DNA of 36,821 bases, taken from NCBI GenBank assembly GCA_028287865.1, contig JAQBOU010000064.1, forward strand, positions 1-36,821, read 5' to 3'. This DNA comes from Mucilaginibacter sp. GTDB taxonomy: Bacteria > Bacteroidota > Bacteroidia > Sphingobacteriales > Sphingobacteriaceae. The position numbers and the translations under genes were made by a program. Below, piece by piece: positions 11,089 through 15,935 of the stretch (its first letter is position 1; every line of letters starts with the position of its first letter). The notes under the pieces are model-generated. The model searched no databases. It saw only the letters and a program-made list of their open reading frames with translations, and was not told the DNA's origin.

Positions 11089-11332
11089 ATTATCTTTGGC
11101 AGTTTCTAATTTTTTAGGTGTTTAATATTAGAATGCCTTATTGCATGTAAAAATTATACACATCAGCGTATTTATACGTTAACTAAAAAAATAAGATACA
11201 CGCATTGCTTCAATATTATTTTTTCTTAACCCCGATCTTTTAACTCTCAAAATCACCGGAATTAAATTTATATTGGTATAAATTTTTTTTTATCAATAAT
11301 GGGTTACAATTTCGCATAAATTGTATTAAATA

Positions 11333-11902
11333 GTGAGTAAAGAGATAAATGTCGGAGTACCAACGGATAGTGAAGTAATCCTGGGTATCCTTAATAATTC
11401 AGAAAGTGTACTAAAGCGTTTGTATATTGCTTACTTTCCGATGGTATTACAGCTGATTATTAATAATAACGGGAATGTTGACGAGGCTAAGGATATTTAT
11501 CAGGAAGCCATAATTGTTCTTTATAATAAAGTTAAAACAGGTGATTTTGAGCTGAGCAGCAAACTGAAAACCTATATTTATTCTGTTTGCAGGAGGCTTT
11601 GGCTTAAAAGGCTTACACAAATGAACCGTTATGGGGGCGATATCAAAGACTTTGAAGAATATTTAACTGTCGACGATGAGACTGAAAAGAATAATGAGCG
11701 GGACATACAATTTAATAAAATGGGTAATGCCCTTAAGTTATTAGGTGAGCCTTGTAAAACGATTATTGAAGATTTTTACATAAACAACAGATCGATGCAG
11801 GAGATTTGTGAGGATTTTGGATATACCAATTCGGATAACGCCAAAACTCAAAAATATAAATGCCTGCAAAGGTTGAAAAAATTGTTTTTTCAGCAAAAAT
11901 AA
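11333..11902 (+). CDS. ECF-type RNA polymerase sigma factor, GTG start
   Basis: Sigma-70 family regulator of 189 residues, with sigma regions 2 and 4 only. Region 2 runs about 25-90 (LKRLYIAYFPMVLQ, DEAKDIYQEAIIVLYNKV, LKTYIYSVCRRLW). Region 4 runs about 128-185 (LGEPCKTIIEDFYINNRSMQEICEDFGYTNSDNAKTQKYKCLQRL). The only plausible start is GTG 11333. The next gene, 13 bases downstream, encodes a membrane protein with an anti-sigma-like N-terminus fused to a protease, so this factor is likely held at the membrane and released on an envelope signal. The N-terminal NVGVPTDSEVILGIL segment has no known motif. Target genes are unknown. Confidence 0.9.
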   Translation: MSKEINVGVPTDSEVILGILNNSESVLKRLYIAYFPMVLQLIINNNGNVDEAKDIYQEAIIVLYNKVKTGDFELSSKLKTYIYSVCRRLWLKRLTQMNRYGGDIKDFEEYLTVDDETEKNNERDIQFNKMGNALKLLGEPCKTIIEDFYINNRSMQEICEDFGYTNSDNAKTQKYKCLQRLKKLFFQQK

Positions 11903-11915
11903 GAAGGAGCAAGCG

Positions 11916-13013
11916 ATGAGCGATAACCAACTAACCGAAACAATTGACAGGTATCTTAACGGTGAGATGACCAAAGATGAGCGCGCCCGTTTCGAAATAC
12001 TTCGAAATGAAAATGCCGATATTAATGCAAAGGTAACTGAGCATAAACATTTCACTAACCTGATAAAGCAATATGGTGAGCGTTTGGAGCTGGAACAGCG
12101 CCTGAATGCTATACATGATGAAATTGACGTTCATGCTCTGGAGCAAGAGTTGCTGATCCGCCCGTCGTGGGTGGTGATGCTGTGGCGTAATCATCATTCA
12201 AAAATATCTGTTGCTGCTTCCATTGCCATATTTGCAGTTTTATGTACTTTGTTTGCAACAGGTTATTTAAGCAACCGTGAAACAAATTATATAGAATTAA
12301 AGGGTAAAATCAAAAAGCTTGAAAATTCTGCACATCAGCTTAGTTCAAAGATCAGTCATCTGGAACCTGGTAAAAAATACAATATCAATCCGGGCAATTT
12401 TAGGGGAACTGGTTTTGCAATTTCTTCAAACGGTTACATAGTTACTGATTATCATGTGGTAAAAGATGCTGATTCGGTATATGTTCAAACTGCTGATGGG
12501 AAATCATTCCGTACCAAAGTAATTTATTCCGAAGCTCAGCCGGATGTTGCTATTTTGGAGATAAACGATCCTTCATTCAAAGGCTTAGGGCCATTGCCTT
12601 ATACTTTTAAGAAAGCAGAGACTGATATAGGCGAAACTATATTTACAATCGGATATCCAAGTGATGTGTTGGTATTAGGTCCGGGTTATTTAACTGCAAG
12701 TACCGGTTTTCAGAATGATACCGCTTCTTACCAGGTTTCTATCCCTGCTAACCCCGGTCACAGCGGTGGGCCGTTGCTTGACAGTAAGGGAAATATAATA
12801 GGTATTATAAGCGGCAAAGAAACTCATATTGAAGGAGCTGCATTTGCACTTAAATCGAGCTATTTATTAAAGGCAATCCAGGATATACCTGCCGATTCGT
12901 TAAAGAATCCGTTAAATATGAATTCGAAAAATGTTTTGGCCGGGTTAAACCGTGTACAACAGATCAAAAAACTACAGAATTACGTTTTTATGGTAAGGGT
13001 TTATAAGCAATAA
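11916..13013 (+). CDS. Membrane anti-sigma-like / trypsin-like serine protease fusion
   Basis: This 365-residue protein has three parts. Residues 1-90 are cytoplasmic and helical (TETIDRYLNGEMTKDERARFE...), like the N-terminus of Bacteroidota anti-sigma factors, which often open with a (I)xxYLxGxLxxxExxxFE motif. One membrane segment lies near 97-118, then a short coiled coil (about 125-150). A periplasmic chymotrypsin-fold S1C protease domain follows (about 155-320). Its triad is readable: TDYHVV (H180), QPDVAIL (D210) and PGHSGGPLL (S283). No PDZ domain is seen; the last 45 residues are unassigned. It follows the sigma gene by 13 bases. The inferred role is a one-protein sensor in which periplasmic protease activity controls sigma release. 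It could instead be a plain membrane-anchored protease. Confidence 0.85.
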   Translation: MSDNQLTETIDRYLNGEMTKDERARFEILRNENADINAKVTEHKHFTNLIKQYGERLELEQRLNAIHDEIDVHALEQELLIRPSWVVMLWRNHHSKISVAASIAIFAVLCTLFATGYLSNRETNYIELKGKIKKLENSAHQLSSKISHLEPGKKYNINPGNFRGTGFAISSNGYIVTDYHVVKDADSVYVQTADGKSFRTKVIYSEAQPDVAILEINDPSFKGLGPLPYTFKKAETDIGETIFTIGYPSDVLVLGPGYLTASTGFQNDTASYQVSIPANPGHSGGPLLDSKGNIIGIISGKETHIEGAAFALKSSYLLKAIQDIPADSLKNPLNMNSKNVLAGLNRVQQIKKLQNYVFMVRVYKQ

Positions 13014-13075: not shown

Positions 13076-14272
13076 CTATCTGTCAACCTCTCCCAATACA
13101 AAATCAATTGAGCCTACTATGGCTATCAGGTCGGCTATCATTACTCCCCTGGCGATTTCAGGCAGTACGGATAAATTATTAAAGCTTGGGGCACGTGCTT
13201 TTACACGGGTAGGTATTTCTGATTTTCCATCAGCCATAAAATAAAAACCCAACTCGCCTTTGGCGCCCTCACACCTGATATAATAATCCTGCGGCTTGGG
13301 TATGGTTTTTCGTGGTAATTTAGCACGTGGATCAAAATCGGGTGTACGTTTTAATTCTTTTTGAAGTCGGTCAAGGCATTGTTCTATCATTTTTAAAGAT
13401 TGCTCAATCTCATCAACACGCACTTTGTAGCGATCCCAGCAATCACCTGTGGTACCCATTTCACCTTTGCCTATAGGTACATCGAACTCCAGTTCGGGGT
13501 AAACAGAATAATTGTCTATCCGTCGTAAATCCCATTTAAGTCCAGATCCGCTGAGCATAGGTCCTGAGCAGCCGTAATTAATGGCAACATCCAATGGCAA
13601 AACGCCAATATTGGCAGTACGGTTAATAAATATCTCGTTGTCGGTTAGTAGCTGGTTCAGCTCAACCATCTTGGGCTTAAAATAGTCTACAAACTCCCTG
13701 CAACGCTCTTCAAAGCCCACAGGCAGATCATAGAACAAACCGCCCACCCATATATAATTATACAGCATGCGCGATCCTGAGGCCCACTCAAGCATTCCCA
13801 TAATGTGCTCTCTGTCCCTGAAGCACCATAAAAAAGGAGTAAAGGCGCCAATGTCAATGCCGTAAGTGCCGATAGCTATCAGGTGTGACCCAATGCGGTT
13901 TAACTCACAAACCAGCACCCTGATATATTCAATCCGTTTGGAAATGTCTTTATCAATGCCCAGCATCCGCTCAACACCCATTACGAAGGCATGGCTGTTG
14001 TTCATGGAAGCTAAGTAGTCCATTCTGTCCGTAAACGGAATGGTTTGCTGGTAGGTTAAAGATTCGGCATGTTTTTCAAAACAACGGTGCAGGTAGCCGA
14101 TATGGGGTATAACTTCCTTAACAATTTCTCCGTCGGTTATCAATTCAAGCCTTAAAACGCCGTGTGTAGAAGGATGCTGCGGGCCCATGTTTAAAACCAT
14201 ATCTTCCGCATTGGCTATTTTTTGATAGTAGTTATTGAGGGCTTCGCTATATTTGGGATTTGTAACAGTCAA
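13076..14272 (-). CDS. nuoD: NADH-quinone oxidoreductase subunit D, TTG start
   Basis: The 49-kDa quinone-site subunit of complex I, in the peripheral arm facing the cytosol. It has 398 residues. Diagnostic segments are [20 protein letters not shown], the [12 protein letters not shown] motif, [13 protein letters not shown], and the C-terminal [18 protein letters not shown]. The only usual start upstream of [10 protein letters not shown] is TTG 14272; an in-frame TAG lies just above it. The gene stands apart from nuoC (the JmjC gene lies between) with a terminator upstream, so it needs its own promoter in 14273-14336. None is convincing there. Confidence 0.95.
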
Positions 14273-15334: not shown

Positions 15335-15440
15335 GTTGGGGGTGGGGGTTAGTGATTGGAGACTAGAGATTGGAGGTTAGGCAGCTGCAATTATTTGTGT
15401 TTTGCTAATCATGGACAGCAGTGCTCAATCACTCTAACTA
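15335..15440. repeat. Fold-back repeat at nuoC 3' end
   Basis: The segment GTGATTGGAGACTAGAGATTGGAGG has internal direct repeats. AGTGATTG at 15351-15358 is inverted as CAATCACT at 15426-15433, with the flanking GTTAG word also mirrored. The nuoC TAG stop codon lies inside the right arm. It is the same type as the other stop-abutting fold-backs. Confidence 0.55.
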
Positions 15441-15935
15441 ATCAATTTTTATCCCTTTATAATATTCTGCGGTTTTGTAGTCTTTTCTTAGAGGGAAACC
15501 ATCCCAATCGTCAGGCAACAGGATCCGGCGCAAGTCAGGATGACCTTCAAAAAATATTCCGACAAGATCATAAGCTTCCCGTTCATGCCAGTCGGCGGTG
15601 CGGTAAACTGATGTTATACTGGGAAACGAAGGAAGATTGTCAAGTCTGCGGTCATTCTCCCGGCTTATTTTTAAGGTGAGTTGTGTTTGATAGGGGATAG
15701 AAGCCAAATGATAAACCACCCCAAAGCGGTTTATTTCAACGCCATAATCAACGCCGGTAATGCTGGAAAGAAAATCAAAATAGGTAGCCGGATTATTCCT
15801 TAACTCGAGGCATACCGGGGTTATTTGTTCTGGGTCAATAAGCAAAGCCGGCTGTAACCCGCCTGTTTCTTCACCAACAATAACGCCGGTACCAAATTTT
15901 TCAGTCAGTAATAATTTAATGTCCTCAAAGATCAT
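15438..15935 (-). CDS. nuoC: NADH-quinone oxidoreductase subunit C
   Basis: The 30-kDa peripheral-arm subunit of complex I, 165 residues. The family signature is visible: ADWHEREAYDLVGIFFEGHPDLRRILLPDDWDGFPLRKDY (about 115-155). It is a stand-alone nuoC rather than a nuoCD fusion. Its ATG overlaps the pdxH stop (ATGA), so it is probably translated by coupling from pdxH. It is separated from nuoD by the JmjC gene and from nuoAB by about 9 kb. Confidence 0.95.
   Translation of the reverse strand: MIFEDIKLLLTEKFGTGVIVGEETGGLQPALLIDPEQITPVCLELRNNPATYFDFLSSITGVDYGVEINRFGVVYHLASIPYQTQLTLKISRENDRRLDNLPSFPSITSVYRTADWHEREAYDLVGIFFEGHPDLRRILLPDDWDGFPLRKDYKTAEYYKGIKID

Follow-up and report, generated by a model that had tools for sequence, protein, structure and literature searches.

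How is an extracytoplasmic function (ECF) sigma factor held back, and by what would it be released, when the membrane protein encoded next to it carries a periplasmic protease of its own? The question is raised by two adjacent genes in a 36,821-nucleotide stretch of DNA from Mucilaginibacter sp. (contig JAQBOU010000064.1 of assembly GCA_028287865.1; "the window" below means this whole stretch). The first gene encodes an ECF sigma factor, and the second, which follows after 13 bases, encodes a fusion protein in which a cytoplasmic helical domain, one membrane helix, a coiled-coil stalk, a flexible linker and a DegS-like serine protease succeed one another. The initial annotation, made from the sequence alone, had already delimited both reading frames and the gap between them, and these are confirmed from the sequence (Table 1). 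The reading that we favor, to which we assign a probability of roughly 0.6, is that the second gene encodes an anti-sigma factor and a site-1 protease in one protein, which would cut its own stalk under envelope stress to free the sigma factor.

Results

The sigma protein passes the superfamily model TIGR02937 (sigma70-ECF; 69.6 bits at a cut-off of 42.9, E 2.3e-19, residues 28-183) and matches Sigma70_r2 of Pfam with an E-value of 1.7e-07; with TIGR02985 (Bacteroidetes sigma) it scores 42, the cut-off being 126.4. Its association with the fusion protein extends far beyond the window. In a sample of 151 Sphingobacteriaceae genomes, searched with a protein match threshold of E<=1e-20 and including a few partial matches, the fusion protein was matched in 137 and the sigma factor in 136, and in 134 of the 137 the sigma gene stands directly 5' of the fusion gene in the same orientation. 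The exceptions are a genome in which the protease match begins at residue 76, so that the measured gap exceeded the limit (G096), one in which the sigma match is partial and on another contig (G160), and one with a partial protease match and no sigma match (G190). Absence is shared as well: the 14 genomes without the fusion protein also lack a sigma match, and in none of the 151 does the sigma factor occur without the protein. Matches at E<=1e-30 were obtained in 27 of 296 genomes sampled across the phylum, of which 6 are confined to the stalk or protease and 21 extend into the membrane part or the N-terminal part, and in the order of genome G487, which is probably Chitinophagales, 37 of 149 genomes match, 19 with an extension into the N-terminal part. 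Named genomes, of which the best 80 of 562 relatives were used, include Mucilaginibacter, Pedobacter, Daejeonella, Chitinophaga, Pontibacter, Rufibacter, Hymenobacter, Spirosoma, Larkinella and others, and a sigma gene precedes the fusion gene on the same strand in 79 of 79 loci with room for it, locus L178 being at a contig end.

Protease relatives without the N-terminal domain were excluded from these pair counts and treated apart. None of 17 loci that encode a protease relative with another N-terminus (L077-L082 and L092-L102, including one fragment, with flanks of at most about 1.5 kb) holds this sigma factor at E<=0.01; this favors the pairing, the sigma factor following the N-terminal domain rather than the protease. 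Two truncated sequences, L217 and L236, were left out of alignment A3, and alignment A4 comprised 66 sequences. The protease relatives lacking the anti-sigma part belong to other lineages; most are about 400-550 residues long, several have a signal peptide or a lipobox by eye, and genome G527 has six matches.

The initial annotation had proposed a search for the pair across the Sphingobacteriaceae and had named protease relatives mostly without a sigma neighbor as the outcome that would speak against its reading; the 134 of 137 genomes and the 79 of 79 named loci show the contrary. The same counts make it hardly credible that a housekeeping membrane protease merely happens to stand beside an unrelated sigma gene, an explanation that is also contradicted by the joint absence, by the promoter 5' of the sigma gene together with the short spacing of the two genes, and by the sigma-free protease relatives. 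We reject chance pairing on the synteny across sampled and named genomes. Judged by sequence, the sigma factor and the fusion protein are a conserved system across several orders of Bacteroidota and not a local oddity; the pairing is well supported, and we are highly confident that the two form a sigma/anti-sigma pair.

What the N-terminal domain does is suggested by its modeled fold. The full-length AlphaFold2 model, built on 79 aligned sequences, has a mean predicted local distance difference test score (pLDDT) of 79.6, and the N-terminal domain modeled alone reaches 85.6. The models place helices at residues 3-14, 20-32, 34-69 and 72-78 or 72-81, followed by a helix at 85-114 that takes in the membrane span. 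A Foldseek search with the domain model gave 12 PDB rows at E<=10, and 8 of the 12 are anti-sigma domains (E 3.5-6.8) from three systems, namely RslA (six chains of 3hug), MucA (8z6g) and RskA with SigK (4nqw). Structural Z-scores for anti-sigma rows are 5.5 (63 residues, rmsd, i.e., root mean square deviation, 5.8), 5.4 (54 residues, rmsd 2.9) and 4.7 (72 residues, rmsd 10.3), against 3.9 for the best unrelated row. A search of the domain profile against PDB sequences returned 10 weak matches, none with an anti-sigma label. The resemblance to an anti-sigma N-terminus that the initial annotation had seen in residues 1-90 thus reappears in the models: the domain is modeled as helical and looks like an anti-sigma domain, the weight of this assignment lying in the fact that anti-sigma domains fill the match list, while each match is weak alone. 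Alternatively, the domain might activate or chaperone the sigma factor in the manner of FecR-like regulators, with proteolysis yielding an active fragment. FecR-like regulators of other bacteria do give sigma-activating fragments (PMC9249621), and the same topology would permit a pro-sigma role, but the PDB rows for the domain point, if weakly, to the anti-sigma domains of RslA, MucA and RskA, and we consider an activator distinctly improbable.

Beyond the membrane helix, the columns of the 79 sequences have a coiled-coil pattern, with a polar layer in most relatives: positions 125, 128, 132, 135, 142 and 146 are hydrophobic in 84-100% of rows, and position 139 in 1%, this position being Ala in the window protein. 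The linker that follows (residues 148-161) is variable in sequence and 8-20 residues long in the same set, and the pLDDT of the model falls below 50 at residues 148-159.

The periplasmic domain is assigned more firmly. Pfam places Trypsin_2 at residues 164-297 (E 4.1e-25), the best PDB sequence matches of the fusion protein are Deg and DegS-type proteases, and in the PDB fold search the protease model is closest to DegS-deltaPDZ chains (2qf0, E 1.5e-13). With the DegS equivalog model TIGR02038, the protein scores 63.7 bits, far under the curated cut-off of 422.95. The initial annotation had described a DegS-like protease with a full triad and without a PDZ domain, and each part of this description was recovered: PDZ is absent from the 8 Pfam families matched at E<=1 by the window protein and from the 25 of 55 matched families listed for the 79 relatives, the top fold match is a DegS lacking PDZ, and the H/D/S triad is identical in all 257 pairs, out of 276 unique ones, that span the domain, as it is in sets of 55/55 and 79/79 relatives that overlap with the 257. 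At the catalytic serine, the window protein reads GHSGG (12756-12770), and GNSGG is found in at least 90% of aligned relatives.

So strict a triad says that catalysis matters, and it leaves the substrate unindicated. The fusion protein might be a quality-control enzyme and signal receptor at once, whose own chain stays uncut: engagement of misfolded proteins, or oligomerization, would shift the stalk and membrane helix, and this shift would either loosen the sigma factor or expose the chain to another site-1 protease. Such a role fits the HtrA relatives, which degrade misfolded proteins; the conserved coiled-coil pattern of the stalk could transmit a change, and protease relatives without the anti-sigma domain exist, several of them secreted or lipidated in appearance by eye. 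The flexible, variable linker between stalk and protease argues against this explanation, and so does the invariant triad, although catalysis might matter for other substrates. We regard a receptor with an uncut chain as rather unlikely. As to the fusion protein cutting its own chain as the switch, we see the chances as evenly balanced.

The locus also offers a candidate promoter, which lies 5' of the interval 11333-13013 covered by the initial annotation and follows the pattern GGGTTAC-N15/16-GTATTAA. ECF promoters have their -35 and -10 elements about 15-16 bases apart, and the pattern has this layout; the sigma factor is predicted to use it. When upstream regions are aligned, the window and most of its near relatives share a conserved GGGTTAC-N15-GTATTAA whose end is about 3 bases from the sigma start codon. 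The count was restricted to unique pairs with 75 or more upstream bases, which excluded 91 of 276, and to pairs retrieved independently of the promoter pattern; of the 148 remaining, 138 have the exact promoter before the sigma gene, with a spacer of 15 in 126 and of 16 in 12, and the ten pairs without it mostly have one-base variants by eye. A scan of 61 genomes of the family for exact sites with spacers of 13-17 found a site in 52, that is, in 51 of 51 genomes with the pair and 1 of 10 without, and 124 sites in total versus 21 for a reversed-pattern control. When one mismatch was allowed, in five genomes, the additional sites resembled chance beside the reversed control, and for this reason only exact sites were used. 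Because of the 13-base gap and the promoter 5' of the sigma gene, the two genes are predicted to be co-transcribed. With 3 bases between the end of the -10 element and the GTG codon (11323-11335), and the same spacing in relatives, the sigma mRNA may be leaderless. Among near relatives that have the promoter at equal distance, most begin the sigma gene with GTG or TTG, as judged by eye. Eight Pedobacter loci (L181, L185, L186, L189, L190, L191, L193, L196) have a second exact site with a spacer of 16 about 70 bases farther upstream of the sigma gene.

Where else the pattern occurs gives a view of the likely regulon. In the genome of the window, which is 85% complete, the promoter is found exactly three times, once before the sigma gene and before each of two adjacent small genes on another contig, whose lipoprotein-like products have 67 and 74 residues (MKNSFKMGALALVIAVSFAAC... 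and then a D/T/S/K-rich tail). The named loci, scanned over 3 kb flanks only, with lipoproteins called by a simple lipobox rule and sigma by profile, hold 155 exact sites in 76 of 80 loci: 87 before sigma, 68 before small lipoprotein genes and 0 elsewhere. The lipoproteins behind the promoter next to the pair have about 50-100 residues. Samples not tied to the pair, of at most 30 loci each, gave the same two classes and some other sites: 31 sites in the family of G363, which by sequence resembles Hymenobacter (22 sigma, 8 lipoprotein, 1 other), 37 in the family of G487 (18 sigma, 10 lipoprotein, 9 other) and 49 in the Sphingobacteriaceae (17 sigma, 24 lipoprotein, 8 other). Exact sites mostly precede sigma or small lipoprotein genes, and a smaller share is of other kinds or due to chance; a regulon consisting of the operon itself and the tiny lipoproteins is thus a well-supported prediction, and autoregulation together with a lipoprotein regulon is very probable.

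The small lipoproteins (L128, L159-L202) have a well-conserved signal peptide, near MKNxFKxGFLALAISLSVAAC, and a low-complexity mature tail, and in some of these loci the gene is repeated in tandem, with two to four copies. In Pfam, one small lipoprotein matched no family, and another had no match over cut-off. In L277, L282 and L297, from the family of G487, the promoter stands before a similar gene of about 96-118 codons (MxxKTYxKTKDYCKVKF...), a possible further target that presumably encodes a domain resembling an isoamylase N-domain. In the window itself, the genes 3' of the fusion gene are on the minus strand (13076-14272 and 15438-15935), and they look like genes for the respiratory complex I subunits NuoD and NuoC.

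Table 1. Features of the sigma factor/fusion protein locus, in positions of the window.
Feature	Position	Strand	Details
-35 element GGGTTAC of the predicted sigma-dependent autoregulatory promoter	11301..11307	+	Exact in own genome; conserved before the sigma gene
-10 element GTATTAA of the same predicted promoter	11323..11329	+	15 bases after -35; 3 bases before the GTG start
ECF sigma gene	11333..11902	+	189 aa, GTG start; TIGR02937 and Sigma70_r2 matches
Fusion protein gene	11916..13013	+	365 aa, ATG start
Cytoplasmic helical domain, predicted to bind sigma, residues 1-96	11916..12203	+	AlphaFold2 helices; weak PDB matches
Single membrane helix, residues 97-115	12204..12260	+	Presumed N-in, C-out
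Coiled-coil stalk, residues 121-147	12276..12356	+	Column composition of 79 sequences; model helix 121-147
Flexible linker, residues 148-161	12357..12398	+	Candidate site-1 cleavage region
DegS/HtrA-like serine protease domain, residues 162-322	12399..12881	+	Pfam, PDB sequence and structure matches
Catalytic H180	12453..12455	+	Conserved 257/257
Catalytic D210	12543..12545	+	Conserved 257/257
Catalytic S283	12762..12764	+	Conserved 257/257
Conserved C-terminal tail, residues 323-365	12882..13010	+	Helix 346-356, strand 357-363; occupies the place of PDZ in DegS

Discussion

The mechanism that we propose starts from what can be read in the sequences, namely the architecture of the fusion protein, its intact triad, the near-universal pairing with the sigma factor, the shared promoter and the lipoprotein genes behind the same promoter. 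Residues 1-96 would hold the ECF sigma factor at the inner face of the membrane, and the membrane helix and the coiled-coil stalk, which is probably that of an oligomer as in HtrA proteases, would carry the DegS-like protease in the periplasm. An envelope signal, as we infer, activates the protease, which would then cleave the fusion protein itself, either in cis or from one subunit of the oligomer to another, most likely in the linker at residues 148-161. The shortened stub would become a substrate of a site-2 protease and of a protease in the cytoplasm; thereby freed, the sigma factor would transcribe its own operon and the tiny lipoprotein genes from the GGGTTAC-N15/16-GTATTAA promoters. 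The site-2 protease family PF02163 was matched in each of 5 genomes from the genus and likewise in all 14 control genomes, so its presence is to be expected.

Several of our results weigh against this reading of a self-cutting anti-sigma factor. Taken singly, the Foldseek matches of the N-terminal domain are without significance, and Z-scores of the size found are frequent among helical bundles; Pfam anti-sigma models scarcely match the domain, zf-HC2 being found in 7 of 79 sequences at E<=0.1 with a best value of 0.013. Coevolution with the sigma factor gives a divided picture. A first direct coupling analysis (DCA) of 146 unique pairs repeated a few columns, as a clade signal would, and mutual information lies above re-pairing for the N-terminal domain and the protease alike and does not single out the former, the real value being reached by 3 (N-terminal domain) and 10 (protease) of 347 re-pairings; in a mean-field DCA of 236 pairs, the N-terminal domain accounts for 33 of the top 50 inter-protein pairs versus 15, 21 and 14 in three re-pairing controls. 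Other periplasmic proteins could be the substrates of the protease, and the matches of the reversed promoter control mean that some single promoter sites are due to chance.

Among Gammaproteobacteria, the MucA-AlgW system has the same parts as RseA-DegS-RseP. With the latter, the present system shares an ECF sigma factor, a membrane-bound putative anti-sigma factor, a periplasmic protease of the DegS family, a site-2 protease and the envelope location (PMC8103513). Whereas RseA-DegS and MucA-AlgW have separate anti-sigma factors and site-1 proteases, with a PDZ sensor on the protease, the present system has one chain, no PDZ and a conserved C-terminal tail instead. RsgI/SEAL-domain anti-sigma factors of Clostridium and Bacillus and FecR/FoxR-type regulators have, to our knowledge, no trypsin-like protease domain, and the fusion of a complete one sets the present protein apart from them. 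Regulators of both types cut themselves, within their extracytoplasmic part, before RseP acts, and for RsgI, ClpXP also acts after the cut (PMC12203970 and PMC9249621). Within Bacteroidota, the dual membrane-spanning anti-sigma factor Dma resembles our protein in having a new C-terminal part after the membrane helix and in lying beside an ECF sigma gene, but Dma, as characterized in PMC13088901, has a disordered tether and a C-terminal beta-barrel and no protease. The C-terminal part of the present protein is a protease with a tail of about 40 residues and not a barrel of the Dma type. With the HtrA/DegS family it shares the protease fold and triad, and it differs by the missing PDZ domain, a score far under the DegS model cut-off and the sigma-linked N-terminal domain. 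EcfO of B. fragilis is said to be linked to lipoproteins as well. For the sigma factor, a published ECF group number may exist, as the 2021 ECF reclassification lay outside the literature covered. The literature matches listed contain no description of an anti-sigma factor fused to a trypsin-like protease. The conservation of the pair, with a matching promoter that recurs before tiny lipoprotein genes, suggests a one-protein envelope sensor undescribed in the literature searched.

One may also think of a closed homeostat for the outer membrane or the lipoprotein pathway, formed by all three parts. The tiny lipoproteins, which together with the operon account for most predicted targets, would in this case be the feedback ligand of the fused protease. 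Correctly exported lipoproteins would keep the protease silent, and mislocalized or undelivered ones would activate it, upon which the chain would cut itself and the sigma factor would be freed. This idea is tentative, and we think it unlikely. If true, it would mean that a single protein senses stress through a reporter lipoprotein dedicated to it, a kind of sensor undescribed in the literature searched.

For the regulation of ECF sigma factors in Bacteroidetes, one publication (PMC7406223) states that only 6% of them adjoin a class I anti-sigma domain and that broken synteny or other control is suspected. The fusion protein, which occurs in Sphingobacteriaceae and also in named genomes of Chitinophaga, Hymenobacter and Spirosoma, is a candidate for such other control, as sensor, protease and inhibitor would be united in one chain. 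Its promoter is sharp enough for regulon prediction from sequence, and the self-contained set of sigma factor, putative anti-sigma factor and promoter may lend itself to genetic tools in Bacteroidota. Envelope-stress sensing in these bacteria would be open to direct test by one serine-to-alanine change and one promoter reporter.
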